A stretch of DNA of 64,000 bases from Algimonas porphyrae. Its GTDB lineage: Bacteria; Pseudomonadota; Alphaproteobacteria; Caulobacterales; Maricaulaceae. Made by a program: the position numbers and the translations under genes. This document shows positions 1,084 through 61,005 of the stretch, one piece after another. How positions within the stretch are numbered: the stretch's first letter is position 1; the number at the start of each line of letters is the position of its first letter. The notes under the pieces were generated by a model that made no database searches, was not told where the DNA came from, and worked only from the letters and a program-made list of their open reading frames with translations. The stretch spans positions 1,242,001-1,306,000 of the forward strand of contig NZ_CP163424.1 of the NCBI RefSeq assembly GCF_041429795.1, given 5' to 3'.

Positions 1084-4000
1084 ATGGAAGGCATCATTCG
1101 CTGGTGGGCGTCCAATAAGGTCGCTGCCAACCTCCTCATGATCATCTGCATCATTGGCGGACTGGTCAGCTTTCTGTCGATCGAGCGCGAGCTCGAGCCC
1201 TATGTCGAATTCCCGGGCGCTTGGGCGCAGGTGACCTGGCCTGGTGCATCCCCGCAGGATGTGGAGGAACAGATCGTTGTTCGGCTGGAAGAAGCCATGA
1301 GCCAGGTCGATGGGGTCAACCGCATGTGGGCGTTCGCCGGTGAAGGCGGCGGGTCCGTCACGGTCGAAGGCAAGCAGGGCGCAGATGAGGCCGAACTGCT
1401 GGCCGATGTCAAACGGGCCGTGGACTCGATCTCCAATTTCCCGCCGGCGGCTGAACAACCCAATGTCAATGTCTGGCGCAATCAGAACGAAATGATCCGA
1501 CTGGCCGTGTCCGGCGATGACAGCGTGTCCGAGCGCGACCTCAAGCGCTTTGCCGAGAAGACACGCCGCGAGGTGGCGCTGCTGGGCGCTGTGCCGAGCG
1601 TTGAGCTGTTCGGTGTGCGCGGCGAGGAAGTCTCGATCGAAGTGTCAGAGACGGCCTTGCGCCGATACGGTCTGACATTCAGCGACGTCGCAAGCGCGGT
1701 GCGCGGAACATCGGTCAATAGTTCTTCGGGACAGGTCCGGACCGGTGTCGGCGCAGTGCAACTCCGCACGCGCAATCAGGCCGATAGCCAGGCCGAATTC
1801 GAAAACATCATCGTGCGGCAGGAACCGGGTGGGGCCACGATCCGGGTGCGCGATGTCGCAACCGTCATTGACGGCTTTGTCGAAGTGAACCTGCTCGCCA
1901 CGGTCAATGGCCGACGGACGATCCTGGTGCAGATCCAGAACGGCCCGGATATGGACATTCTGAAAATGAGCGAGAATGTGAACCGCTATCTGGAGACTGT
2001 CGCGGACGAGCTGCCTCCTGGTATCTCGATTACCAAATGGAGCGACGCCGCCGACGATTATGCAGGTCGGATCAATTCTATCTCTTCCAATTTCTTCCTC
2101 GGCTTGCTGCTGGTCTTTGCCACGCTGATGCTGTTCCTGCGGCCCAAGATCGCGCTCTGGGTTTCAGCTGGGATCGCGACGGCCTTCCTTGGAGGCTTGG
2201 CGCTGCTTCCGCTGTTCGACGTGTCGCTGAACATGATTTCGACCTTCGCCTTCCTGCTGGTTATTGGCGTCATCGTGGACGATGCGATCATTGTCGGCGA
2301 GGCGATCCATCACAAGACGGAAACTGGTGAAACCGATCTGGATGCGGCGGTGAACGGAACGATGATGGTGGTCAAACCCGTCATCTTTGCCGTGCTGACG
2401 ACGATGATCTTCTTTGCCCCCTGGATGTGGCTGACGGGCGATGCACGTCACTTCACCCGGGCTATTTCCATCGTGGTGATTCTGGCGCTGCTGTTCTCCC
2501 TGATCGAGAGCTTGCTGATCCTGCCCGCCCACCTGTCGCACCTTAAACCTGTCGATCCGCAAAACCGGTTCACGCGTTTTCAGAAGAAGATTTCCGACAG
2601 TCTGACCTGGGTTGCGGAGCGGGTCTACCGTCCAGTCATGACGGGCGCGCTGCGCCGGCGTTATCTGACGGCGTCGATCTTCCTGGGGGCCATGATCCTG
2701 TGCATCGGTCTGGTCGCCAACGGTCTGGTCAAATCCAGCTTTTTCCCGAATGGCGAGTCCGATCAGATCGACGTGACCGTCCAGCTGCCCGAAGGTACGC
2801 CTTATGCCCGCACGCTCGAAGTGCTGGCGCAATTGCAAGCCGCAGAAAAGGCGCTGGAAAAGGAAATCGCCGAGACGGACGGAGAACTGATCGAGAACTG
2901 GTATACGCGGGCCCGCGACAATAATATTCTGGCCCTCGTCAAGCTGGTGCCACCGGAAGACCGTGCGCTGGAAATCTCCGCTGCTGCGGATCGCTTGCGC
3001 GAATTGCTGGGCGATGTGCCGGATGCGGAAAACATCTCGGTCAACTATGGCAGCAATAATAATGGTCCTTCCATCCAGTATGTTCTCAATGCGAAATCGT
3101 TCGACGATCTGAATGCAGCCGCAGACGATTTGATGGGGCAGCTGCGATCCTATGAAGGCGTATTCAATGTCGTCAACGACATGGAAAGCGCGACCGAGGA
3201 AGTTCAGTTCGACTTGCTGCCAGGCGCGGAAGCGCTGGGGGTCACGGCGGCCGATGTGTCGCGTCAGGTCCGTCAGGGTTTCTTCGGTGATGAAGTGCAA
3301 CGCCTGCCACGTGACGGCGAGGATGTGAGGGTCTATGTCCGCTATCCGCGTGCTGACCGGGAATCGCTCGATTTCCTGAACGGCATCCGCATTCGGACGG
3401 CTGACGGGCGCGAATTGCCGCTGGAATCGGTTGCTCGCCTGCGCTTCGAACCCGGCACGAACCGCATTCTGCGGCGTGAACGCCAGCGCGCGATCATCAT
3501 CTCCGCCGAAGTCGAAGACACGCGCGCACAGGAAATCCGTACCGCACTCAATGAAGACTTTTTCGAAGGATTTGATGCGCGCCATCCCGATGTGACGCGC
3601 GGCAATATCGGTCGAAGCCAAGGTGAGGCGGAAATGATGGCGGAACTGCGAATCCTGTTCCTGATCGCCATCGGCATTGCCTACTTCCTGGTCGCGGTCT
3701 CGTTCCGGTCCTATTCGGAACCGATCCTGATCCTGTTGGCGGCGATACCATTCTGCTATTGCGGCATGATTATCGGCCATGTGGTGATGGGCTTCGAGAT
3801 GTCGCTTCTCTCACTCCTTGGCATGTTCGCCGCAGCTGGCGTGGCTGTGAACGACAATCTCGTCCTGCTCGATTATGTCCATAAGCTCAGGGACAAGGGC
3901 ATGGACGGCGCACAGGCGCTGGTCGAGGCTGGCACGCGGCGGTTCCGGCCGATCCTGCTGACTTCGCTGACGACCTTTGTCGGCCTGCTTCCGCTGCTGA

Positions 4001-6007: not shown

Positions 6008-7024
6008 CTAAGCGGCCTCTAGCACCTCACGGACAGCCGCCGTAACGCGTTTCTGTCCCGGGAAATAGGCCCATTCTTGCGCGTGTGGATAGGGCGTGTC
6101 CCATCCGGTGACCCGGCGGATCGGCGCTTCCAGATGGTAGAAGCAGCGTTCCTGCACTTGCGACATCAGTTCGGCGCCGAAGCCGGACGTTCGCGTTGCT
6201 TCGTGCAGGATGACGCAGCGTCCGGTTTTCTTCACACTGGTTTCGATGGCGTCGAGATCGAGCGGAACGAGGGATCGCAGGTCGAGAATGTCGGCCTTGA
6301 TGCCGAGATTGGCCGCGACGGCTTCGGCGACCCAGACCATGGTGCCATAAGCGATGATCGTGACGTCCGGACCTTCGCTGACGTGACGGGCCTTGCCCAG
6401 CTCGACCGTATAATGGCCACTCGGAACATCGCCGAGTGCATGGCCTTTCCAAGATACGGACGGGCTTTCGTGGTCGCCATCGAACGGGCCGTTATAGAGT
6501 CGTTTGGGTTCGAGGAAGAGAACCGGATCATCGGATTCGATCGCCGCAATCAACAGCCCCTTGGCGTCATAGGGATTGGACGGGATGACCGTCTTCAGAC
6601 CCGCAATATGAGTAAACAGGGCTTCCGGGGATTGGCTGTGGGTCGGTCCGCCGAAAATACCGCCGCCGACCGGTGTCCGGATGGTCAGCGGGCAGATGAA
6701 ATCGCCATTGGATCTGTATCGCAGGCGCGCCGCTTCGGATGCAATCTGGTCATAGCCGGGATAGATATAGTCCGCGAACTGGATTTCCGCGACAGGGCGC
6801 AGGCCATTGGCCGCCATGCCGATGGCGATGCCGACAATGCCGCCTTCGCTGATTGGTGTATCGAAGCAACGGTGCAGGCCATGTTTTTCCTGCAGGCCCG
6901 CCGTGCACCGGAAGACACCGCCGAAATAACCGACATCTTCGCCGAAGGTCAGGACGCTCGCATCTTGGCTCATCTTGACATCCATCGCATCGCGAATGGC
7001 TTCGATCATGGACATGTGCGGCAT
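6008..7024 (-). CDS. bkdA2: Branched-chain 2-oxoacid dehydrogenase E1 beta subunit
   Basis: This is the beta half of the thiamine-diphosphate-dependent E1 component, which decarboxylates branched-chain 2-oxoacids from Val, Leu and Ile. At 338 residues it has family length. It starts with MSMIEAIRDAMDVKM and contains the pyrimidine-binding domain (LTFGEDVGYFGGVFR, and PISEGGIVGIAIGMA with the ThDP-activating glutamate region) and a transketolase C-terminal domain (DILDLRSLVPLD, HEATRTSGFG). Its ATG overlaps the E1alpha stop by one base at 7024, so both subunits are likely made in equal amounts. Confidence 0.94.
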   Translation of the reverse strand: MPHMSMIEAIRDAMDVKMSQDASVLTFGEDVGYFGGVFRCTAGLQEKHGLHRCFDTPISEGGIVGIAIGMAANGLRPVAEIQFADYIYPGYDQIASEAARLRYRSNGDFICPLTIRTPVGGGIFGGPTHSQSPEALFTHIAGLKTVIPSNPYDAKGLLIAAIESDDPVLFLEPKRLYNGPFDGDHESPSVSWKGHALGDVPSGHYTVELGKARHVSEGPDVTIIAYGTMVWVAEAVAANLGIKADILDLRSLVPLDLDAIETSVKKTGRCVILHEATRTSGFGAELMSQVQERCFYHLEAPIRRVTGWDTPYPHAQEWAYFPGQKRVTAAVREVLEAA

Positions 7025-8271
7025 TAGCCCAGCTCCTTCCGGAACATCTCTTTTTGTTCAAGCAACAGCTCGGGAGGATCGGCATAGACCTGTTCGAACA
7101 TGGTGAAATCGTCGAGTTGCGGACCGTGTTCGACCGTGCCGAGGGCTTCAGCCTGCTTGTAGGTTTCGCGCACAAACAGCTTGGCCTCCTTCGCAAAGGC
7201 CTCATGCTGCTCATCGTCCCATTCGCCGATCTTGACCAGATGGGTTTTCAACCGCTCGACCGGATCGCCGAAGGGCCAGACTTCGCTCTCATTAGCGGGC
7301 CGGTATTTGCTGGGGTCGTCAGACGTTGAATGGCCTTCGGCACGGTAGGTGAAATGCTCGATGACGGTCGCGCCGCCGCCTTGGCGGGCGCGTTCTGCCG
7401 CCCATTGGGTGGCCGCATAGACGGCGAGAATGTCGTTACCGTCGACGCGCAAGGTTGCGAGGCCATAGCCCGTTCCGCGGGCGGCAAAGCTTTCCCCGTC
7501 GCCCATGGCGATGCCCTGAAAGCTGGAAATGGCCCATTGATTGTTCACCACATTGATAATGCAGGGGGCGCGGTAGGTCGACGCAAAATTCAGCGCATAA
7601 TGGAAGTCGCCTTCTGCCGTTGCGCCTTCGCCTGTAAACGCCGACGCGATACCGTCTTCATTCTTATAGGCTTCGGCCATGCCCCAGCCGACCGCCTGAA
7701 TCAGTTGTGTGCCGAGATTGCCGGAAATGGAGAAGAAGCCGTGCTTGCGGAAGCTGTAGAGCACCGGGATGTTCTTGCCTTGCAGCGGGTCGCCTGAATT
7801 GGACAGGCACTGGTTCATCATCTCCAGCATGGACGCCCCGCGCGCGATCAGAATGCCTTGCTGACGATAGGTGGGGAAGACCATGTCCTGATCGCTCAGC
7901 GCATAGGCGTGACCCACGGAGACGGCCTCTTCCCCGCGAGACTTCATGTAGAAGCTCATCTTGCCTTGGCGCTGCATCGCAAACATGCGGTCATCCATGG
8001 CGCGGGTCAGCATCATGTCCTTCAGCATCTTGCGCTTCACGTCAGGTGTCAGCCCGGGCACCCATTCGCCGGCCGTTTCACCGTTGAAACGCATGACCCG
8101 GATCAGCTTGAGCGCATGTTCGACCGTCTCGTGATCGTCGCACATCGGATCCGGACGGTGCGGCGTGTGGTCGGTCGGAACGCTGATATGGCTGTAATCC
8201 GGCGTGTCGCCGGGCCGGAACGGGGGTTCGGGCACATACATGCGGGACTGATTGGATTTCGGTGTTGCCAT
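7024..8271 (-). CDS. bkdA1: Branched-chain 2-oxoacid dehydrogenase E1 alpha subunit
   Basis: This is the alpha half of E1 and carries the ThDP/Mg binding region (GEGATAEGDFHYALNFA, then NNQWAISS). The N-terminal region around YVPEPPFRPGD is typical of the Bkd branch rather than pyruvate dehydrogenase. The phosphorylatable-serine loop region reads FTYRAEGHSTSDDPSKY. The open frame extends 20 codons further to a TTG at 8331, but the ATG at 8271 gives 415 residues, matching the family. It is first in a three-gene operon (E1alpha, E1beta, E2) read away from an Lrp-type regulator gene. Confidence 0.94.
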   Translation of the reverse strand: MATPKSNQSRMYVPEPPFRPGDTPDYSHISVPTDHTPHRPDPMCDDHETVEHALKLIRVMRFNGETAGEWVPGLTPDVKRKMLKDMMLTRAMDDRMFAMQRQGKMSFYMKSRGEEAVSVGHAYALSDQDMVFPTYRQQGILIARGASMLEMMNQCLSNSGDPLQGKNIPVLYSFRKHGFFSISGNLGTQLIQAVGWGMAEAYKNEDGIASAFTGEGATAEGDFHYALNFASTYRAPCIINVVNNQWAISSFQGIAMGDGESFAARGTGYGLATLRVDGNDILAVYAATQWAAERARQGGGATVIEHFTYRAEGHSTSDDPSKYRPANESEVWPFGDPVERLKTHLVKIGEWDDEQHEAFAKEAKLFVRETYKQAEALGTVEHGPQLDDFTMFEQVYADPPELLLEQKEMFRKELG

Positions 8272-8473
8272 AGCGGATAAGCCCTGTGTCAATGAAACCC
8301 GGATGTGGGGGAAGGCGTTCCGGACGCCCAATCGCTGCTTCTATACGTCTGAACCGCATGAATGGCTTGGCGGCAATCGCTTGATCCTTGGCAAATTATG
8401 CCGGAATGCGCTAGAGGGATGGAAAAGTTAGCCGTGTGCAACCTGTCTCTCTTACGTGCCATGAGGTCGGATC
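8272..8473. promoter_or_regulatory. Divergent bkd operon / Lrp-type regulator intergenic region
   Basis: The 202 bases between the E1alpha start and the regulator start must hold both promoters and probably the regulator's own binding sites, as in known bkd systems where an Lrp-like BkdR activates the divergent operon. I cannot assign -35/-10 boxes or operator sequences with confidence. The role is inferred from gene arrangement. Confidence 0.45.
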
Positions 8474-8974
8474 ATGAAATCCAGCAGCCAGATCGACAAT
8501 ATCGATGCCAAAATCCTGCATCTACTGCAAGGCAATGCCGGCCTGTCCGTCGCTGAAATCAGCGAGCAGGTCGGCCTGTCCTCCTCGCCATGCTGGCGCC
8601 GGATCAAGCGTATGGAAGAGCTGGGTATTATCGACCAGCGCGTGACGCTGCTCGACCGGCAATTGCTCGGCCTCGATTTCGAGGTTTTCGTCGCCGTGAA
8701 GCTGTCCCTGCCCAATCGCGCCAATATGGAAAAGTTCGAACGCGAAGTCGCGCGCATGCCCGAAGTGGTTCAGTGCGCCGTGGTCACGGGCGCGGTCGAT
8801 TTCATGCTCCGGGTCGTCACGACCGACATGCATGCCTATGAAACATTTCTGCGCGAAACGTTGCTCAGCATCGACCTGATCAGTGACGTGCAGAGCCGGA
8901 TCGTCCTCCGCCAGGCCAAGGACACGACCGCACTGCCGCTCAACCTCATCAGTCCGGCGGTGCCGCGTTATTGA
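8474..8974 (+). CDS. Lrp/AsnC family transcriptional regulator (probable bkd regulator)
   Basis: The 166-residue protein has an N-terminal winged helix-turn-helix (IDNIDAKILHLLQGNAGLS, then VAEISEQVGLSSSPCWRRI) and a C-terminal RAM/ligand-binding domain from about residue 75. Lrp-type proteins form octamers or higher oligomers and sense amino acids. It is divergent from the branched-chain 2-oxoacid dehydrogenase operon, which is the classical arrangement of bkdR, so Leu/Val/Ile or their keto acids are the likely effectors (inference). It could also act more widely. The next gene is convergent, 13 bases away. Confidence 0.9.
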   Translation: MKSSSQIDNIDAKILHLLQGNAGLSVAEISEQVGLSSSPCWRRIKRMEELGIIDQRVTLLDRQLLGLDFEVFVAVKLSLPNRANMEKFEREVARMPEVVQCAVVTGAVDFMLRVVTTDMHAYETFLRETLLSIDLISDVQSRIVLRQAKDTTALPLNLISPAVPRY

Positions 8975-8987
8975 TGCCGGCGCCTCT

Positions 8988-9908
8988 TTAGTGGACCGCA
9001 AAGTTGATGTGCGTAATCAGCTCTTTCGAGTCGGTATCCTGCGGGGAATTGCCGTAGGTTTCGAAAGGGTGGTAGTTCTTTACGACCTTGATTTCCTTGG
9101 CGCGGATCAGGTTGTGCATGGCGGACCAGGCATTGCCGAGATGTTCATAAGGGCCGACATGTTCGAGCGTGTAGAGGCGCGTCGCGGCCTGTGATCCGGT
9201 GATGAAGTCCGCGGGCATATCGGCGGGTATATCCGAATAAGGGACGGCTGCCGTATAGTCGCAATGGCCCTTCATCGGATTGAAGTCATGATAGATGCAG
9301 AACATGGAGGCCGGATCGAGCCCATTCTGTGCTGCCCAAGGCCCAAGCCGTTCGAAATCCTGCTGCATCAGCTGCGGCATGTCGTCGAGCGTGCAAGCGC
9401 GCCGGATGCCGATATAATCGCATCCGGCATAATCACGTGGACCGAGAAAGTTCAGTCTCGAGTGAATTTCGCCGTCTTCGACATAGTCTTTCAGCAGGTT
9501 TAGCCCGCGCTCATAATCCATGCCGATGAACGACTCCATCATTCGCTTCATGAAGAACATGAAGAAGGGGAGCTGGCTGTCCATTGACCATGTGATCTTG
9601 GTGCCGCCCTCGACGTCTTCAAGGTCCATGCCGACCTTGGCGGTGGATTTGAACGGCTTAAGGAAGGTCAGATCATAGCGGGCTGAGCGGTTCGGCACCG
9701 TGTCCGTGATCCTCATGTCTCCTTCGCCGACACGCACTCCCTCCCAGCGGTAGGACTGACCGTCATCTGACACAGTCACGACGGCGTCCGGCTCCATGAT
9801 CAGCCAGGGCGACCAGGCCTCCCACTGATCCATATTGGCGATGGCAGGATAGACCTGATTGGCGGGCGCGTTGATCAGCTTGGAGCGGGCGACGTGAACT
9901 TTGGGCAT
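8988..9908 (-). CDS. SRPBCC domain + GyrI-like effector-binding domain protein
   Basis: The 306-residue protein joins two ligand-binding folds. Residues 1-150 are an SRPBCC/START-like domain (polyketide cyclase family; INAPANQVYPAIANMDQWEAW is its typical first motif). Residues 155-306 resemble the GyrI-like small-molecule binding domain found in AraC-type regulators and SbmC (YIGIRRACTLDDMPQL, then TLEHVGPYEHLGNAWSAM). There is no DNA-binding domain. The start has a perfect AAGGAGG ribosome site 6 bases upstream. Such proteins are thought to bind hydrophobic or toxic small molecules; no substrate can be proposed. It stands alone, convergent with the Lrp-type gene. Confidence 0.85.
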   Translation of the reverse strand: MPKVHVARSKLINAPANQVYPAIANMDQWEAWSPWLIMEPDAVVTVSDDGQSYRWEGVRVGEGDMRITDTVPNRSARYDLTFLKPFKSTAKVGMDLEDVEGGTKITWSMDSQLPFFMFFMKRMMESFIGMDYERGLNLLKDYVEDGEIHSRLNFLGPRDYAGCDYIGIRRACTLDDMPQLMQQDFERLGPWAAQNGLDPASMFCIYHDFNPMKGHCDYTAAVPYSDIPADMPADFITGSQAATRLYTLEHVGPYEHLGNAWSAMHNLIRAKEIKVVKNYHPFETYGNSPQDTDSKELITHINFAVH

Positions 9909-19550: not shown

Positions 19551-20456
19551 GTGACTCGTACGACACATTCCGACAGGCCCGGCAAGGACGGCCGCATAAG
19601 CGCCGTCATGGTGTCCTACATGACGGGGCCTGCGCTGATGGAGGCCGTGCGCGGCATTCAGCGCGATCCGGGCATTTTCGAACTGATTATCATCGATAAT
19701 GGCAATCCGCGCATAGACCGGGCCCGCATATGGGAGGTGGCGTCTCGAACGGAGAATGTCCGGCTGGTGCAGGGTCACGGCAATATCGGCTTTGCCGCCG
19801 CCTGCAATTACGGTGCAGCCCTGGCCGATGGCGACTATCTGTTGTTCATCAACCCTGATGCCATTCTGGAAAGCGGAGCCGCCCGGCAAATGGCGCGCGC
19901 GGGCGATCTTCACACCCGTCCCTGGATAACCGGCGGAATGCTGTTCAATGCGGCGGGCCGCGAACAGCGCGGCGGACGGCGCGGCGTTCTGAGCATGCGC
20001 TCGGCCATTGCCAGCTTTACGCCGCTGCACCGTCTGCCGGGCATCGCCTCCATTCACCGCGAAAACGAACCGTTGCCAAGCGGACCAGCGCTGATCCCGA
20101 CCGTATCAGGGGCACTGATGCTGATGGATCGTCAATCCTTCGACCAGCTTGGCGGTTTTGATGAAGCCTATTTCCTGCATGTCGAAGATATCGAGATCTG
20201 CCGTCGTGCCCGCGATATGGGCGGCGATGTCATCTTCGTGCCCGGTGCCTGCGCCTTTCATTATGGATCGACTTCGGAAGTCACGCGCTGGCGCGTCGAA
20301 ATGCACAAGCTGCGCGGTCTGATCCGCTATTTCTGGACTTCCGGACCTGGCTTCGGTGCCAAGCTCGGGACGATCCTGATCGCGCCGCTCATGGCGGCGG
20401 CGCTGATGGCGCGGACCGTGTGGTTGAGCCTCAGGAAAGCCGTCACCGGTCGCTGA
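19551..20456 (+). CDS. Glycosyltransferase family 2 (rhamnosyltransferase-like)
   Basis: The 301-residue GT-A enzyme starts with a GTG at 19551. It contains the nucleotide-sugar binding part (SAVMVSYMTGPALMEAV; ELIIIDNGNP), the GNIGFAAACNYGAA motif typical of the WbbL-like rhamnosyltransferase branch, the metal-binding stretch LLFINPDAIL, and the catalytic region GGFDEAYFLHVEDIEICRRA. A C-terminal hydrophobic stretch may anchor it to the membrane. It sits 65 bases behind the O-antigen ligase-like gene, which suggests O-antigen or other surface glycan assembly. Sugar donor is unknown. Confidence 0.9.
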   Translation: MTRTTHSDRPGKDGRISAVMVSYMTGPALMEAVRGIQRDPGIFELIIIDNGNPRIDRARIWEVASRTENVRLVQGHGNIGFAAACNYGAALADGDYLLFINPDAILESGAARQMARAGDLHTRPWITGGMLFNAAGREQRGGRRGVLSMRSAIASFTPLHRLPGIASIHRENEPLPSGPALIPTVSGALMLMDRQSFDQLGGFDEAYFLHVEDIEICRRARDMGGDVIFVPGACAFHYGSTSEVTRWRVEMHKLRGLIRYFWTSGPGFGAKLGTILIAPLMAAALMARTVWLSLRKAVTGR

Positions 20457-22871
20457 TCAGCCGCCGGACGAACCTTCGATCCAACTGCTGGGTTCGGGGA
20501 TGACGCGTCCGCGTTCATCCGTCAGTTTAAAAGTTATTTTGACGTTCTCGTCGCGGCTCTGAACGAACTTCCCGCCTTGGCGCGCGGGTTGATAGACCCA
20601 TTTACGCAAGGATTGCTTGGCGTTTCTGTCAAAGACGCGCTCCGTGCATCCGACCGTGTCGATCGTGGTGACCTGTCCCCAAGCGCTGACGCTCAGATTA
20701 TATATGCAGTGACCGCTGGCATCGGCGCGTCTTGGCAATATGGGTGGAATACGGACCACAGGCACGGCCTCGCTATCCCGGGTTTCGATATTCAGCCCAT
20801 CGACAAGGAATGCGATCTGATTGCTGGTCAGTTTCGGAACAGCACCCATATAGTCCAGACCCGGTATGGTGGCCCCCGGTTTGCGTAGCAGTGCTGCCAG
20901 ATCAGCTCCCGGATCCGGCCGTGACAGGTTGGCGGACTCGAAGGCGACTTTGAACTCATCCAGATCACGCTGCAACGACGCGTCTAACACGGCGTCCGGG
21001 ACGTTATATTCTGTAAATTGCCCCGATTCAGGAACGTAGCTGCCATCCGGGTCGCTCATGCGGAACACGATACGATTCTCGATACCGGGCCGTTCCACGA
21101 TTTTTCCATTCTCGACGCGGGGCTGGTAAAACCAAGTGTTAATCGCCGCACGGGACGGATTGAGAAAAACCGACTCTGTGCATCCGGTTGCAACGATGTC
21201 GCGGGTGTGACCCTGCTGATCGACCGTAAACCGCATGTTGCAATAACCGCTATACTGCGCTTCCCCGGGCGCGATCGGGCCGTTGCGCAGACAGGGTGCG
21301 GCATCAACATTTTCGGGCGCACTTTTCACGAACTCACGGGCACAATCATTGGCTTTCGCTGAGTCAGCTTGATTGAAGGCCGTCTTTCCGGATGGAATCG
21401 CGTAGACGAAATTGCTCACGAGCGAGAGCCTCTCCTTGCGGGCCTGTTCCGCCAGTCGGGCCGCCTCGGCAGCAGCGGCAGCCTTGGCCTCTGCGGCACG
21501 TTTCAACCGGGCCGCCTCGGCCTCGGCAGCACGCTTCAATCGGTCTGCTTCGGCCCGCGCGGCAGCTTCGGCGGCTTCCTTATCGTCGATGCGCTTCTGA
21601 AATTCTTCGGCGCTAACGAGCGTATAGGTCGACGTCCCCTTATTGCCTTTCCGACCGGATGATCCGCTGCGGCCCTTATAGCCGTCGGGACCGCGATAGG
21701 CCCGTCTGCTACCGGCATCCTGACCGTCGCGCCCGCCGTCACCCGCACTTCCCGCTGATCCGCCAGAGCCAGCGGCACCGCCATTGACGTTGGAATTGAG
21801 ATTTTTAAGGAATGTATCCTTGAAGGCGACACTCCCGACAACCTCGATCCTGACGGCTCCGCCATCACCGCCATTGCCGCCGCGACCGCCATCACCGCCG
21901 TCACCACCGGGTCCCCCATCGCCACCGATCGAACTGTGCCGGTCTGCGTAGGACCCATTGGCACCTTGGCCGCCTGTGCCGCCCTTGCCACCGCGACCCC
22001 CACTGCCACCGTCACCGCCCGTCGCATCGATCTGCAGCGTATTGGCAAAGTCCCAATAGCCACTGGCAAGAACTTCGCGGCTGTCATAGTCGAGAACTTC
22101 GATAAAGCCGAGCGGGGCCGTATATTCCATCGGCACTTCGCGAACACGAATGCGGACCCGCCCGCCATTTCGCCCGTTACTGCCTGATGATGCGTCTGAC
22201 CCGTTGCCGCCCTTGGTGCCGTCGCCATTATGGGCGCGAATGTTGAGAGAATTGGGAATGCCCGGGATTGGATAGACCGCTCGAGTTACGCGCCCGCCAG
22301 CGCCCGCCCGGCCCTGACTTCCACTCTGACCCGGCGACCCATCAGAGCCGGGTTTCCTGAGACGCGAGGTCGCGTTGAAGGGCTGCGACCGCAAGAATTC
22401 GGCTTTGCGGGCGTTTTCGGCCACGATGAAAGGGGCCTGAATGGCCGCTTCCAGACGGGCGGCTTCGTCGGCGCGCTTGCGTTCGCGTTCCGCTTCGATC
22501 TTGGCATCGATATCCAGCAAGATCTTGTCGATCGGCATCTTGTCCGCATCGCTCGGTCCAGACGCATAGAACTCGTCGATGACCGCCAGGGCGCGTTCAT
22601 AATTTTCCATCCGGTACAGCGCGCGCGCTTCCAGACTCAACAGACGGGCACCCGTCTCGCCGCTGATCTCCTCAGCCTTGGCGAGGGCTGTCAGGGTTTC
22701 GGAATAATTGCCCGATTTGAACGCGGCCTGTGCGGACGCGAAATGTGCGCGAGCCTTGGCCAGGTCGACATTCGACAGTTGCGCCGCCGCCGGCATGGCC
22801 AGTCCGGTGGCAATCATCAATGCGATTGCTGCGATGGAACGGCCCGATTTCAAGGGTGATTTATATGGCAT
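20457..22871 (-). CDS. Exported TPR / poly-glycine / coiled-coil protein with two TonB-C domains
   Basis: The 804-residue protein has a signal peptide (cleavage about A30), TPR-like helices (about 33-105), an Arg/Glu/Ala coiled coil (about 108-165), four glycine-rich blocks (about 175-195, 210-238, 284-340, 362-414) built from GGDGG/GGxGGx repeats and flanked by predicted beta strands, a second Ala/Glu/Lys coiled coil (about 420-482), and two C-terminal TonB-like domains (about 540-606 and 718-785). Each TonB-C copy has a Y-x(4-5)-V-x(5)-G, G-C-T-E and W-x-Y-Q-P pattern with paired cysteines. The TonB domains occur without an N-terminal TM anchor, so this is not a classical TonB. It follows the WG-repeat gene by 9 bases and should be co-expressed. 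The combination is unfamiliar to me; a structural or envelope-spanning role is a guess. Confidence 0.8.
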   Translation of the reverse strand: MPYKSPLKSGRSIAAIALMIATGLAMPAAAQLSNVDLAKARAHFASAQAAFKSGNYSETLTALAKAEEISGETGARLLSLEARALYRMENYERALAVIDEFYASGPSDADKMPIDKILLDIDAKIEAERERKRADEAARLEAAIQAPFIVAENARKAEFLRSQPFNATSRLRKPGSDGSPGQSGSQGRAGAGGRVTRAVYPIPGIPNSLNIRAHNGDGTKGGNGSDASSGSNGRNGGRVRIRVREVPMEYTAPLGFIEVLDYDSREVLASGYWDFANTLQIDATGGDGGSGGRGGKGGTGGQGANGSYADRHSSIGGDGGPGGDGGDGGRGGNGGDGGAVRIEVVGSVAFKDTFLKNLNSNVNGGAAGSGGSAGSAGDGGRDGQDAGSRRAYRGPDGYKGRSGSSGRKGNKGTSTYTLVSAEEFQKRIDDKEAAEAAARAEADRLKRAAEAEAARLKRAAEAKAAAAAEAARLAEQARKERLSLVSNFVYAIPSGKTAFNQADSAKANDCAREFVKSAPENVDAAPCLRNGPIAPGEAQYSGYCNMRFTVDQQGHTRDIVATGCTESVFLNPSRAAINTWFYQPRVENGKIVERPGIENRIVFRMSDPDGSYVPESGQFTEYNVPDAVLDASLQRDLDEFKVAFESANLSRPDPGADLAALLRKPGATIPGLDYMGAVPKLTSNQIAFLVDGLNIETRDSEAVPVVRIPPILPRRADASGHCIYNLSVSAWGQVTTIDTVGCTERVFDRNAKQSLRKWVYQPARQGGKFVQSRDENVKITFKLTDERGRVIPEPSSWIEGSSGG

Positions 22872-22880
22872 GAGGATCCC

Positions 22881-24359
22881 CTAATTGACATCGTATCCGC
22901 GACTTTGGAGGCGGGAGGAATAGCTGGATGCCTTGGCACCGCAGGCTTCCATCAGGCGCCGTTCGCGCGCACCGTCATTCCGGTCGCGACAGCCTTCAGG
23001 CGGGCATGACCGGATCACCAATTTGGCGCTGCTACTATATTTGACAGTGGCCGTTTTGGTCGGTGGTAGAACCCAGCCGCCAGTCGAATCGACAAAGCCC
23101 ACTTCTTCCATCGTCACATCGATGGAATAGCTCCTGAATGCGGTCCCTTCGCAATCCGGAACATTTCCGTCGGCAGCGACCGATTTGACGACGTGGGCCA
23201 TGCCGTCCTCGTAGCTTTTTATCTCCCACGGTCCGTAAGGGATCAGAATGTCGCCCAGGCTGTTGATGACGCCAACGTCATTGTAGCCGCGTTTATGGAT
23301 TTCAAAATCGGCCACCCCGCCGGAATCCCATATCCCGCCACCAGACGGTTCTGCGCTTGCGACAGCTTTGACAGGCTCGGAGTCCCAGACACCGGCCCGC
23401 GCCACCTTAACGTCCCTGTCCCCCGAGGCGCCATTGGCGTCCGACGTTCCGGATTGCGGTGCTGCCGCATTATCTTCTGAGTCCCAGATGCCGTTTGATG
23501 CCGCATTTTCAGAGCTGGCCTCAGCTTGGTCCGGTGCGTTGGCTTCGAAATTGTCAGATGGCTGGTCGTCAACCTCGTCAGCCTCGTCGGTTTCGTTGCG
23601 TCGTTCCAGTTCGTCATGAATCATCTGGATCGTCGCCTCGGGCCATTCGACCTTTTCGATCGTCAGATCCGATAGCATGATCGTCTTGGCCCCTCTCATC
23701 GTGTTCTGCGCTCTGTTATCGGCGTCTTCGCCTGTGTAGATGCTGCCCCAGTCGATGAATTCCCGATAGCGACGCGGGCTGGACGGGATAAAGTTGCTAC
23801 TGCGACGTCCGGCAGGCAGGATTTGCAGATGCGGTGTGTAGCGGACATATTTTGTCCCGCTGGCCCCCGTCGCCTTCCCATTGAACTGACCATAATGGTT
23901 CGGCTGCCTCAATTGTCCTTCATCATCCGGAAAGACGTCGACTTTCATGCTGAGGACCAGATCGATCGGCTTGATATCATCAAACCGTTTCAGGAGATCG
24001 GGATGACCGGCCAGAGCGTCGCGTCGCAGCGTTTCTCCGTTGTCGAGATAATATAAACCGGGGCTGGTCCACAGCAGGGTGTAGGACTCGACTGCCTGAC
24101 CCATCAGACCAGTCCACTTCAAACCCAGCTCGATGCGTTCGAATGTCTCGTGAATGGGATAATTCCACAATTCCAGAGCGATGCCGCCCTTGAAGACGCC
24201 GTCGGGCGTCCGCTCCATGGTGACGCCCTGCGTGGAGTAGCGATCCTTATCCTGCGCGCTGGTCGGTGTCGCAAAGGCGGCCAGCAGTAAACAGGCGAGA
24301 AGACAGATTAGGATTGAAGCGCGCCAGAGGTGAGCCGGAAAATATCCGTCTGGTCTCAC
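22881..24359 (-). CDS. Exported protein with WG-repeat-like region and IWDSE repeats
   Basis: The 492-residue protein starts at a GTG with an AGGGGGG ribosome site 8 bases upstream; an in-frame TTG 18 bases earlier is less likely. It has a signal peptide (residues 1-36, ending TPTSAQ), a globular N-terminal half with no family I recognise, an acidic linker (about 245-290), three copies of a G-[IV]-W-D-S-[EG] motif (about 290, 323, 342), and a region with WG/KWG-repeat character (VGVINSLGDILIPYGPWEI; VGFVDSTGGWVLPP). The tail has four cysteines likely to form disulfides. It is the first gene of an operon with the poly-glycine/TonB-C protein, so the two probably work together outside the cytoplasm. 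Function unknown. Confidence 0.75.
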   Translation of the reverse strand: MRPDGYFPAHLWRASILICLLACLLLAAFATPTSAQDKDRYSTQGVTMERTPDGVFKGGIALELWNYPIHETFERIELGLKWTGLMGQAVESYTLLWTSPGLYYLDNGETLRRDALAGHPDLLKRFDDIKPIDLVLSMKVDVFPDDEGQLRQPNHYGQFNGKATGASGTKYVRYTPHLQILPAGRRSSNFIPSSPRRYREFIDWGSIYTGEDADNRAQNTMRGAKTIMLSDLTIEKVEWPEATIQMIHDELERRNETDEADEVDDQPSDNFEANAPDQAEASSENAASNGIWDSEDNAAAPQSGTSDANGASGDRDVKVARAGVWDSEPVKAVASAEPSGGGIWDSGGVADFEIHKRGYNDVGVINSLGDILIPYGPWEIKSYEDGMAHVVKSVAADGNVPDCEGTAFRSYSIDVTMEEVGFVDSTGGWVLPPTKTATVKYSSSAKLVIRSCPPEGCRDRNDGARERRLMEACGAKASSYSSRLQSRGYDVN

Positions 24360-24460
24360 TATCTTTACCCCCCTCAATTGCTGAGACCGTCCCCTGACGC
24401 GGTATCAGCCCATTCTCTCTGGCATAAGGAAACAGCGTGGCAAGGCTGTTTTTGCAGGCA

Positions 24461-26035
24461 TCAAGCATCTGAACGTGCCCACGCGTCCAGATCTGATTGG
24501 CGGCATGCCGCGGTCCGGTGAATGAGCAGTTCGACCTCGCGACCCTTGGCGTAATGGCTGCCTGCCACAGACACGACCGGCTCGGCACAGGCCGGGGGCG
24601 TCGTTTCGGATGACAGGATCAGTGTATCGCCGGGGCGGGCCTCTCGCGTCAGCCGCGTCTGCGTGCCCGCAAGAAAGACCAGTGACGGTTCGCGGTAGTC
24701 CGGTGAGACGACGGATGACTGGGCCGGGATTTGCGCCACAAGACGTGGCGTCAAGTCGAGCAGCGGGCTGTTTGCAAGCACCAGACCGAAACCCGTTGCA
24801 AGGAATAAACCGCCGGCGATCAGCCCGCGCCAGACGTCCTGCCTCGCAAACCAGAGCGCGGACAACATGACGAGTGCGGACAGGATGACGGCGCAGAGCA
24901 CGACTGCGGTAACCGACAGACTGTCCCAATGTGTTGCCGCGACGAGGGCGGCCAGCAGGACGCCGACGACGCCCATCAGGACCAGACCTGACAGGCGCAG
25001 CCAACCCGCATCGACCAATCTGACCCAGCCCGCACCAGCCAGCAAAGCCAGCGCCGGATAGAGTGGCAGCGTATAATGCGGCAATTTTGTCGGGACGAGT
25101 TCCAGCCCGATCCACATCGGGATGATCCAGGCGAGCAGCAATCTGACGCCGCGATCAGTCCGGTTTCGCCATGCAAACAGGATCGCGACCGGCACGGCCA
25201 GAATGCCGGGCCAGAACATAACCAGGCTTGTCAGCAGATAATAACCGGGCGCGCCGCCATGGCTTTCCTGCGCGCCGGCGATTTTGCCGCCAAAGTCGCG
25301 GCCCAGCGCTTCGGCGAAAAAGGCGCCGTCGGTCCTGATCCCAATCGCCACGAACCAGGGCAGTGCAATCAGCAAGGCCACGATGATCGGCATGGGTTTC
25401 ATGGTTGCGCGGACTCGGTCCCATGAGCGGTCCCAGAGGGCCGATCCGATCAGTCCCAATGCGGCAATCGCCAGGATCAGCGGACCTTTCAGCAGCAGTC
25501 CTGCCGCAATGCCCATCCAGACTGGCCAAGCCTTACGCGCCGCCAGACCGTAGAGCACGACCGCGCAGGCCCCAGCCAGCATGGCGTCGGTCTTGGCGAT
25601 ATGGGCTTCGAAAACCAGCGATACGGACAGGGCCAAAAGCCCTGCGCCCCATAACGCTTCGCGGCGGCCGAACAGGGCAAGCCCACCCAAATAGGTCGCC
25701 CAGACCGCGATCAGCGCGCCCAGAACGCTCGGCAGACGGTGCGCCCAGATGGCGCGTTCGCCGCGTTGTACATCATCGATCTGTCCGGTCAGGGTCAGGC
25801 TGGCAAGCTGCGCCCAATAGGCCCCGGCGGGCTTCTTGTGACGCGCATCCTCCTGAAACCGGATGTCGATCAGGTCGCCCGTCTCGACCATCTGTACCGT
25901 GGCCTGCGTGTAGCGGGCTTCGTCGCGGTCGATCGGGGGCAGGGACGCCAGGCCCGGCAGATAGGCTAGCAGGGCAATCAGACCCAGCAGCAGCATGTCG
26001 CGCCGTCTGGAATGGCTGGAAGGCGAAGCAGTCAC
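24461..26035 (-). CDS. ArnT-like GT39 family lipid-linked sugar glycosyltransferase
   Basis: This is a polytopic GT-C enzyme of about 524 residues that takes a sugar from a polyprenyl phosphate and adds it to a periplasmic acceptor such as lipid A or protein. The conserved acidic motif IDRDEARYTQ lies in the first periplasmic loop, followed by RFQEDARHKKPAGAYW and about 11-12 TM helices; the TKLPHYTLPLYPALA motif is typical of the ArnT/YfhO-like branch. I chose GTG 26035, which has AAGG upstream; an ATG at 26125 would add 30 residues overlapping the divergent gene's leader. It is divergent from a polyprenyl-phosphate sugar synthase-like GT2, which could make its donor. Confidence 0.85.
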   Translation of the reverse strand: MTASPSSHSRRRDMLLLGLIALLAYLPGLASLPPIDRDEARYTQATVQMVETGDLIDIRFQEDARHKKPAGAYWAQLASLTLTGQIDDVQRGERAIWAHRLPSVLGALIAVWATYLGGLALFGRREALWGAGLLALSVSLVFEAHIAKTDAMLAGACAVVLYGLAARKAWPVWMGIAAGLLLKGPLILAIAALGLIGSALWDRSWDRVRATMKPMPIIVALLIALPWFVAIGIRTDGAFFAEALGRDFGGKIAGAQESHGGAPGYYLLTSLVMFWPGILAVPVAILFAWRNRTDRGVRLLLAWIIPMWIGLELVPTKLPHYTLPLYPALALLAGAGWVRLVDAGWLRLSGLVLMGVVGVLLAALVAATHWDSLSVTAVVLCAVILSALVMLSALWFARQDVWRGLIAGGLFLATGFGLVLANSPLLDLTPRLVAQIPAQSSVVSPDYREPSLVFLAGTQTRLTREARPGDTLILSSETTPPACAEPVVSVAGSHYAKGREVELLIHRTAACRQSDLDAWARSDA

Positions 26036-58948: not shown

Positions 58949-59046
58949 CGCCATAGCCCCAACCGATAGGCCCTATTGAAAACTGCGATGCCGCGACGTG
59001 ACGGTCGTCATTGCCCACGGACAGCCGTGCCGCTAGGCACCGCAGC

Positions 59047-61005
59047 GTGATTGCTGAAGTCGGACATATCGCGCTGATTCTCGCCTTTGTTGTGGCGATC
59101 CTGCAGGGAACAATTCCTCTGATCGGCGCGCATTTCAAACATGGGCGCGCCATGGCGCTGGCTGAGCGCGCGGCGTTGGCGCAGGCTTGGTTGCTGATCG
59201 CCAGTTTTTCGCTGCTGACAATCGTCTTTCTGCGCTCCGATTTCTCAGTTCTGCTGGCGGCGAACCATAGTCACACGATGAAGCCGCTACTTTACAAAAT
59301 CAGTGGGGTCTGGGCGAACCATGAAGGCTCCATGCTGCTCTGGGTCGTCATTCTCGGCATTTTCGGGGCCATGGTGCCGCTATTCGGTCGGGCGCTGCCC
59401 CTGTCGCTCAAAGCGCGCGCGCTGGCCGTTCAGGGCCTGCTGGGGGCCGGATTCATCGGTTTCCTGCTATTCACCTCCAATCCGTTCGAGCGGCTCAGCC
59501 CAGTGCCGCTCGATGGTCGGGGGCTGAACCCGCTGCTGCAAGACCCCGGCCTCGCCTTCCATCCGCCGCTGCTCTACGTCGGTTATGTCGGCTTCAGCCT
59601 GGCGTTTTCCTTCGCCGTCGCAGCCCTGATCGAAGGACGTGTTGATGCCGTCTGGGCCCGCTGGCTGCGGCCTTGGGTGCTACTGGCCTGGAGTTTTCTG
59701 ACCCTCGGGATCACGGTCGGGTCCGTCTGGGCCTATTACGAGCTGGGCTGGGGCGGCTGGTGGATGTGGGACCCGGTCGAGAACGTGTCCTTCATGCCGT
59801 GGCTGGCCGGTACGGCACTGCTGCATTCCATCCTGTCGTTGCAACACCGCCACAGCCTTGCGAACTGGACGGTGCTGCTCGCGATTTCGACATTCTCGCT
59901 GTCCATGATCGGGACATTCGTCGTACGGTCCGGTGTGTTGGTCAGCGTTCACGCTTTCGCCGTCGATCCGGCGCGCGGTGTCGTGATCCTCACACTCTTG
60001 CTGATCTATACCGGGGCTGCGCTTGCCCTTTATGCAATGCGCTCGAACACGCTGCAAAGGAGCGCCAATCTGCATCTGGTCAGCCGTGAAGGCGGCCTGG
60101 TCGTCAACAATATCCTGCTGGTCGTCGCCACGGCGACTGTCTTTCTCGGGACCTTCTATCCCCTCTTCGTGGAAGCGACATCAGGCGACAAGATAAGCGT
60201 CGGGGCCCCTTATTTCGATGCGGTCTTCGCGCCGATGATGATCGTGCTGATCCTCGTCATGGCGATCGCCCCGATGCTGAAATGGCGGGAAGATAGATTG
60301 CCACGTTATCGGTCGCTGATGATCAAGGCGGCCATTATTGCCGGGGTCGTGACGGTCCTGACATTCTGGCTGGGCCGGTCGGTGCTGGGTGCGCTGTCTT
60401 TCGGCGTCGCGGGCTGGCTGATCGCCGGGACCGTGGCGGCGCTGCACCGCAGAACCGGGTTCAAAGGGGCGCGTCTGCGGGCTCAGCCGGCGGGAACCTG
60501 GGGATTTGTGATCGCGCATCTGGGCGTCGCCGTCTTCACCATCGGTGTAACCGCAATGAGCATCGGAGCTCAGGACGATATTGCGCGTATGCAGGCCGGC
60601 GACAGTCTCGATGTGGCAGGCTACACATTCACCTTGCAAAGCAAGGAAACAGGCGCGCGCGACAATTTCCAATATCTGGAAGGGACGGTCGACGTGACCC
60701 GAGCGGGTCGCGAGGTCGCAACCCTGACGACACAGCGGCGCTACTATCCGGTGCGTGAAATGTTCACCTCCGAAGCCGGTTTCAAACTGTCGCCCGGTGC
60801 CATGCTGTTCGCCGCGATCGGCGAGGGTGGTACCGAAGGCGGCGTGATTATCCGGGCCTATTATCAGCCCGGTGTCCTGTGGATCTGGATCGGCGCGCTG
60901 ATGATGGCGCTGGCAGGCTTTGTCAGCCTGGCTGATCAGAGGTTGCGTGTCCCCAAGCAGGCCAAGCCTGCCATTGCGAGCGCGGACGCGGTGCCAGCCG
61001 AATGA
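59047..61005 (+). CDS. ccmF: Cytochrome c maturation heme lyase subunit CcmF
   Basis: CcmF is the membrane core that attaches heme to apocytochrome c with CcmH and CcmI. The 652-residue protein has about 14-15 TM helices, the WWD heme-handling motif (WGGWWMWDPVENVSFMPW), the N-terminal ANHSHTMKPLLYKISG loop, FHPPLLYVGYVGFS and a late periplasmic domain (about 540-610). GTG 59047 fits the family start (IAEVGHIALIL); an in-frame TTG at 59011 is less likely. ccmH overlaps by 4 bases. ccmA-E and the thioredoxin gene ccmG are not beside it. Confidence 0.95.
   Translation: MIAEVGHIALILAFVVAILQGTIPLIGAHFKHGRAMALAERAALAQAWLLIASFSLLTIVFLRSDFSVLLAANHSHTMKPLLYKISGVWANHEGSMLLWVVILGIFGAMVPLFGRALPLSLKARALAVQGLLGAGFIGFLLFTSNPFERLSPVPLDGRGLNPLLQDPGLAFHPPLLYVGYVGFSLAFSFAVAALIEGRVDAVWARWLRPWVLLAWSFLTLGITVGSVWAYYELGWGGWWMWDPVENVSFMPWLAGTALLHSILSLQHRHSLANWTVLLAISTFSLSMIGTFVVRSGVLVSVHAFAVDPARGVVILTLLLIYTGAALALYAMRSNTLQRSANLHLVSREGGLVVNNILLVVATATVFLGTFYPLFVEATSGDKISVGAPYFDAVFAPMMIVLILVMAIAPMLKWREDRLPRYRSLMIKAAIIAGVVTVLTFWLGRSVLGALSFGVAGWLIAGTVAALHRRTGFKGARLRAQPAGTWGFVIAHLGVAVFTIGVTAMSIGAQDDIARMQAGDSLDVAGYTFTLQSKETGARDNFQYLEGTVDVTRAGREVATLTTQRRYYPVREMFTSEAGFKLSPGAMLFAAIGEGGTEGGVIIRAYYQPGVLWIWIGALMMALAGFVSLADQRLRVPKQAKPAIASADAVPAE

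Follow-up and report, generated by a model that had tools for sequence, protein, structure and literature searches.

Analysing a 64,000-nucleotide stretch of the Algimonas porphyrae genome (hereafter the window, positions 1242001-1306000 of a single 3,169,281-base chromosome, the length published for strain LMG 26424; PMC11556061), we identified a gene pair, P0002-P0001, that is rare among the genomes compared and was apparently gained by transfer. The pair associates P0001, a modular protein with a tetratricopeptide repeat (TPR) domain near its N-terminus, with P0002, a protein carrying short tryptophan motifs (hereafter W motifs), and a W-motif gene was found next to every locus strongly matching this TPR domain. 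Tentatively, we read the pair as an accessory modular adaptor of the cell envelope, in which the TPR domain would dock the W motifs of the partner while exchangeable C-terminal modules would bind a target, an account that we hold to be plausible more than probable.

Both genes lie on the minus strand, P0002 (22881..24377, 498 amino acids) preceding P0001 (20457..22871, 804 amino acids) with a spacing of 9 bases, in a genus placed by NCBI in the Robiginitomaculaceae. Each product begins with a signal-peptide-like segment (residues 1-30 in P0001, 22782..22871, minus strand), with putative cleavage between AAA and Q in P0001 and between SAQ and D in P0002; here and below, such starts were called by eye, not by a predictor program. 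The initial annotation of this DNA had described two exported-type open reading frames (ORFs) 9 bases apart, and both ORFs are present with these starts. It had placed the P0002 start at the GTG of position 24359, which we keep as an alternative, the ORF extending to a TTG at 24377.

A distinct TPR subfamily accompanied by W motifs

The N-domain of P0001 (residues 31-103, 22563..22781, minus strand) adopts a TPR fold in structural models. It reached a predicted local distance difference test (pLDDT) score of 90-98 in a joined P0002-P0001 model, whose alignment included four TPR relatives, as against only ~49-81 in the model of full P0001, built from an alignment without them. The modelled domain matches the designed TPR 1na3 with a Z score of 13.2 and a root-mean-square deviation (rmsd) of 1.5 over 86 aligned residues, bearing out the TPR-like helices first noticed in the sequence; the sole Pfam match in this part was ANAPC3, below cut-off. 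By profile comparison, this N-domain (TPR-N) is a distinct subfamily, because leave-one-out profiles recovered P0001 at 46 bits, its Algimonas arctica counterpart P0003 at 67 bits and a copy from another genus of the same family (genome G120) at 48 bits, versus less than 5 bits for three other TPR proteins of Algimonas porphyrae.

Five strong members were found, distributed over four loci in three genomes (Algimonas porphyrae, Algimonas arctica and G120), the G120 copy being matched at 4.8e-13 by a profile built before its inclusion. At E 1e-3, 10 of 137 family genomes matched, three strongly and seven weakly (1.6e-4 or worse). Searches of the order (398 genomes, 1e-4), class (385 genomes, 1e-7) and phylum (259 genomes, 1e-6), sets that overlap partly and each count Algimonas porphyrae, yielded no further strong member outside the family: 52 order genomes matched, of which three strongly and the others at 23-33 bits with a generic-TPR-like appearance, and the single class and phylum matches were Algimonas porphyrae itself.

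The linker of P0002 holds the motif G-[I/V]-W-D-S three times, as GIWDS (residues 296-300, 23478..23492), GVWDS (residues 329-333, 23379..23393) and GIWDS (residues 348-352, 23322..23336), all on the minus strand; these motifs had been overlooked in the initial annotation. When the linker was shuffled 100,000 times, no shuffled version contained at least two copies, and the corresponding DNA pattern occurs at four sites in the genome, three of them in P0002, with three sites for the reversed control. The motifs are followed by a degenerate WG-repeat-like region (residues 360-440, 23058..23300, minus strand). The original description of P0002 as a WG-repeat protein survives as a weak likeness, its score of 12.4 bits with WG_beta_rep (Pfam PF14903), like the 22.4 bits of its relative P0004, falling under the cut-off of 25.6 bits. 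Structure searches aligned nothing to P0002, whose model was too poor for this to be informative.

An adjacent W-motif gene was present at 4/4 TPR-N loci, namely P0002 with three motifs, P0004 with four, P0007 with one and a G120 ankyrin protein with one. P0002, P0007 and the ankyrin protein begin with signal-peptide-like segments, and the partners fall into three families (P0002 and P0004 forming one) without mutual similarity by Pfam. Algimonas arctica and G120 together contain 10 sites of the exact DDFW codon pattern, 4 of which lie in three partner genes covering ~3.3 kb of ~6.4 Mb; the remaining six are spread over a membrane-type and an integrase-like protein and a G120 protein starting with a signal-peptide-like segment, all three named by eye, and over short or startless frames. 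Algimonas porphyrae has three sites of this pattern, none inside the pair. A looser motif, [DGSN][DGSA][FIV]W[SDTNA], which captures just two of the three W motifs of P0002, was matched 12 times in 53,857 residues of greedily called ORFs from 11 stretches, partner loci included. Eight of these matches fell within the four partner genes, which total 1,589 residues; three were in the window ORF 59011-61005 and one in a PMT-type protein of Algimonas arctica. A Fisher test on residues gave 2.5e-10 for this enrichment, a value to be taken as a guide only, the motif having been drawn from the same genes and matches within a gene being non-independent.

Conservation and exchange of modules in related genomes

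Among 60 relatives, 49 matched P0001, nearly always through its TonB_C parts in the rows listed, and P0002 was matched in two, its own genome included. An alignment of P0002 and P0004 matched 2/137 family genomes, and the search of genome contigs with it led to one locus, in Algimonas arctica. With P0002, P0005 and the TPR domain as queries, tblastn against plasmids returned nothing; P0003 matched 124 records, the 20 listed all aligning to its Sel1 part. No relatives of the P0002 family were found in viral contigs.

The Algimonas arctica locus, on NZ_BMZH01000029.1, encodes the pair P0004-P0003. It resembles P0002-P0001 in gene order, in its homologous partner (P0004 is 34% identical to P0002 over the shared part), in its TPR subfamily and in its W motifs, which follow the form [D/S]xFW and read DDFWS, DDFWD, DSFWT and SAFWN in P0004. 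It differs in that P0003 continues from the same TPR N-domain into Sel1 repeats instead of Gly-X-X and TonB_C parts, in the lack of a visible signal peptide in P0004, and in the D5_N-type primase gene found ~0.7 kb downstream. The pair that had been singled out as one system in Algimonas porphyrae is therefore kept in a second species while its domain order is not. Because Sel1 repeats replace the TonB_C and glycine parts in Algimonas arctica, the constant core of these loci is, on comparative grounds, the TPR domain with its W-motif partner and not the combination of TonB_C domains and WG repeat. The P0004 gene (8070-9497, at the contig end) is preceded by an in-frame stop near the end of the contig.

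At a second Algimonas arctica locus, two adjacent TPR-N proteins, P0005 and P0006, are divergent from P0007, in which QGDDFWNSW and a coiled-coil-like stretch come after a signal-peptide-like start; the C-terminal parts of P0005 and P0006 have no Pfam match and a propeller-repeat look by eye. These tandem TPR-N genes (6352-7803 and 7808-9382 of locus L020) share their contig with an integrase-like ORF. In G120, the TPR-N protein is divergent from the ankyrin protein, in which a signal-peptide-like segment is followed by AQDDFWAGG.

Putative docking of W motifs by the TPR domain

Short linear motifs recognised by helical-repeat domains are a well-studied theme of the eukaryotic cell interior and, to our knowledge, have seldom been described in bacterial envelopes. 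Kinesin light chain, the system to which we compare the pair, is eukaryotic and cytosolic and has more TPRs. P0001 differs from it in its two TPR hairpins and its probable export, and we claim no homology. The likeness lies in the ligand: according to PMC6214655, the TPR domain of kinesin light chain reads short peptides in which acidic residues flank a tryptophan, in cargoes such as SKIP and calsyntenin, binding W-acidic peptides, e.g. TNLEWDDSAI. With this precedent, we infer that the TPR domain of P0001 docks the three W motifs that P0002 carries in a disordered-looking linker, and that up to three copies of P0001 could assemble on a single P0002. The exchangeable part after the TPR domain would then decide what the complex holds. 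Were this docking true, the pair would offer a small, testable motif-reader system outside the cytoplasm, in which TonB_C domains serve as interchangeable modules for binding instead of terminating an energy transducer.

Extending this scheme to all four loci, we consider it possible, although doubtful and with less confidence than for the Algimonas porphyrae pair itself, that they represent an undescribed envelope system, where an exported TPR domain reads [D/G/S]x[F/I/V]W on separate exported partners, and where accessory cassettes, by gene swapping around a single motif-reader contact, combine various C-terminal modules (TonB_C, Sel1, propeller-like) with various partners (WG-like, coiled coil, ankyrin). 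In the open-licence literature, we found no paper combining DDFW with tetratricopeptide, nor any combining three of the terms polyglycine, glycine-rich, TonB C-terminal and tetratricopeptide; of 38 papers matching WG repeat terms, the 10 listed deal with other subjects.

Several observations weigh against docking. The W motif was defined after inspecting the very genes in which it was then counted, with non-independent matches within single genes, and its form varies from GxWDS in P0002 to DDFW in the relatives. One DDFW protein of G120 with a signal-peptide-like start (contig C23) lies on a different contig from the TPR-N gene, and AQDDFW is not enriched in the order, where its two matches are the G120 partner and an enzyme-like ORF in which no signal peptide is apparent by eye. 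P0004 as read has neither a signal peptide nor a counterpart of the first ~115 residues of P0002; its gene may be broken, or may read on in another way once the genome is completed. The joined model, a stop-read-through chain in which P0002, stripped of its signal-peptide-like start, runs in frame into residues 1-165 of P0001, had a mean pLDDT of 53.9, with 27-48 in the linker, and is uninformative about docking. Finally, the known TPR-N copies total just five.

The idea that AQDDFW generally tags proteins for export or sorting was rejected, with 2 matches in the 398 order genomes versus 4 for the reversed control.

TonB_C domains and glycine-rich region of P0001

The C-terminal part of P0001 contains two TonB_C domains (Pfam E 2.4e-15 over two stretches), domain 1 at residues 526-615 (21027..21296) and domain 2 at residues 699-785 (20517..20777), both on the minus strand. 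The full P0001 model (mean pLDDT 65) shows both folds, as the initial annotation had proposed from the sequence. Domain 1 is supported by sequence and model, and domain 2 additionally matches receptor-bound TonB, in the FoxA complex (6i97; Z 11.5, rmsd 1.6, 86 aligned residues) and in the BtuB complex (Z 10.8), with Foldseek E-values from 7e-6. Compared with anchored TonB, these domains share the same fold and sequence family, with 33-48% identity to the TonB proteins compared in the family, and are closest to anchored TonB, domain 2 being 46% and domain 1 37% identical to the genome's own. A recent duplication need not be invoked for the two domains, since they are only 33% identical to each other and both are closer to anchored TonB; a tree of 16 TonB_C domains resolved too poorly to place them. 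Two conserved cysteines (SGHC ... CT) occur in most TonB_C domains compared, those of P0001 (residues ~545-620 and 715-785) and of loci L072 and L077-L081 included and that of L075 excepted, and have the look of a disulfide. Such a disulfide is not known from E. coli TonB.

Outside these domains, P0001 departs from TonB by its two TonB_C copies, its TPR and Gly-X-X parts, the lack of a proline-rich spacer (longest proline run of 2, against 5 in the genome's TonB and 2 in its second TonB) and the lack by eye of an uncleaved N-terminal anchor, its N-terminus resembling a cleavable signal peptide, unlike that of the genome's own TonB. The motif SxHxLxS, presented in a passage of PMC12204202 as the motor-binding motif of the TonB anchor, is absent from P0001 and from both TonB proteins of Algimonas porphyrae, and is hence non-discriminating. 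No exbB or exbD was found beside P0001, the adjacent genes being of glycosyltransferase, O-antigen ligase and PMT type. Since no lasting membrane anchor was seen, P0001 would not couple to ExbB-ExbD. Within the adaptor reading, its TonB_C domains would most likely bind a strand, for instance the TonB box of an outer-membrane receptor, by beta-strand addition, the mode by which TonB binds TonB boxes (PMC11658791).

The same resemblance feeds an explanation without contact between the two proteins, which would merely share an operon: P0001 would act in the periplasm as a scaffold or decoy, its TonB_C domains capping receptor TonB boxes and so limiting uptake or the entry of colicins and phages, with P0002 as an unrelated passenger. 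We judge this unlikely, although it is the closest competitor to the adaptor; it accords with the 46% identity of domain 2 to the cell's own TonB, with its match to receptor-bound structures and with a C-terminal part that is not conserved alongside the partner, but it sits poorly with the P0002/P0004 family and the TPR domain staying together at different sites in two species.

Between the TPR and TonB_C domains, a Gly-X-X region (residues 170-416, 21624..22364, minus strand) is flanked by two long modelled helices, matching the two coiled coils seen at the outset: residues 114-161 (22389..22532) and residues 421-489 (21405..21611), both on the minus strand, the latter with a weak match to the helical part of TolA. 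Glycines three residues apart are 2.7 times as frequent as expected (residues 165-430), and beta strands are modelled between the blocks, with block pLDDT values of 30-80 in this region. The four GGxGG-type blocks announced by the initial annotation proved to be a genuine Gly-X-X region with another count and type, namely five G-X-X runs of at least four triplets, two of them GGx. The accompanying idea was that of a surface or periplasmic structural element, where these blocks form a polyglycine-II or collagen-like rod displaying the TonB_C and TPR ends. The period of glycine and the five runs agree with it, as do two adjacent genes of another genome (G025:C11; 8415-9608 and 9669-10940 of locus L021) with similar large Gly-X-X regions (weakly, 42-45% identity, E 4e-5 to 6e-5), and the glycine region was matched in 5/137 family genomes at E 0.01, its own included. 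We nevertheless find a rod quite improbable as the function of the pair, the region not being seen in the other four TPR-N members, hence not part of the shared core, and being modelled with middling confidence.

Genomic context and mobility of the pair

The genes thrS, O-antigen ligase, family-2 glycosyltransferase and PMT type, together with the next three genes, occur in the same order and without the pair in Algimonas arctica and in genome G017, the two compared at this junction among 17 other genomes of the genus. The flanking gene matches abut in G017 (8860-8861 of its stretch), and are separated in Algimonas arctica by a 459-base gap (8643-9101 of its stretch) holding a short glyoxalase-like ORF by eye, where a search for a remnant of the pair found none. 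The glycosyltransferase/PMT junction (window 20456-20457 and 24378-24461) is thus occupied by the pair, by a glyoxalase-like ORF or by nothing depending on the genome, and could possibly be an insertion hotspot. GC content at third codon positions is 0.643 and 0.651 in the pair versus 0.688-0.726 in six flanking genes, and the Algimonas arctica pair sits elsewhere, upstream of its primase gene. Because the junction is variable, third-codon GC is lower and the second pair occupies another site, a gain by transfer into a variable junction fits these data; a loss in the relatives is possible instead. No repeats bracketing the pair, such as transposon ends, were seen.

A constant TPR domain with changing C-termini at a variable site, together with the lower third-codon GC, would also suit a polymorphic toxin or defence-like cassette. 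That explanation appears very improbable to us: PADLOC gave no match for six proteins nor PHROG for P0001, P0002 and P0004, and wherever Pfam recognises a C-terminal part, it is a module for binding and not a toxin domain.

Other TonB_C proteins of Algimonas porphyrae

Besides P0001, Algimonas porphyrae has six TonB_C loci. Two encode TonB proteins with an anchor-like start (2.486-2.489 Mb), beside exbB/exbD-like genes named by eye. The other four proteins have, by a crude rule, a signal-peptide-like start and no anchor. The initial annotation had stressed the absence of a membrane anchor and of a proline spacer in P0001; the absence holds by eye and by proline run, but it is not special to this protein. 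Because of these four further anchorless proteins, it is, as judged from the sequences, usual in this species for TonB_C to serve as a periplasmic part.

Two of them, a WD40-TonB_C protein (G000:C1:1836978) and a TPR-TonB_C protein (G000:C1:2137859), resemble P0001 in joining a signal-peptide-like start, a helical-repeat or propeller part and a terminal TonB_C. They differ from it by TPR-like parts scoring less than 5 bits with the TPR-N profile and by a single TonB_C, and no W motif was present in the ORFs scanned around them, unlike at the P0001 locus. The first (1473-3329 of that locus, minus strand) combines helices that look TPR-like by eye with a coil, a WD40 propeller and a single TonB_C, without an anchor. 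In the region G000:C1:2484500-2491500, exbB/exbD-like genes, so named by eye, lie with tonB at ~2.489-2.491 Mb, in one row with a second tonB and the gene of a TPR protein that begins with a signal-peptide-like segment.

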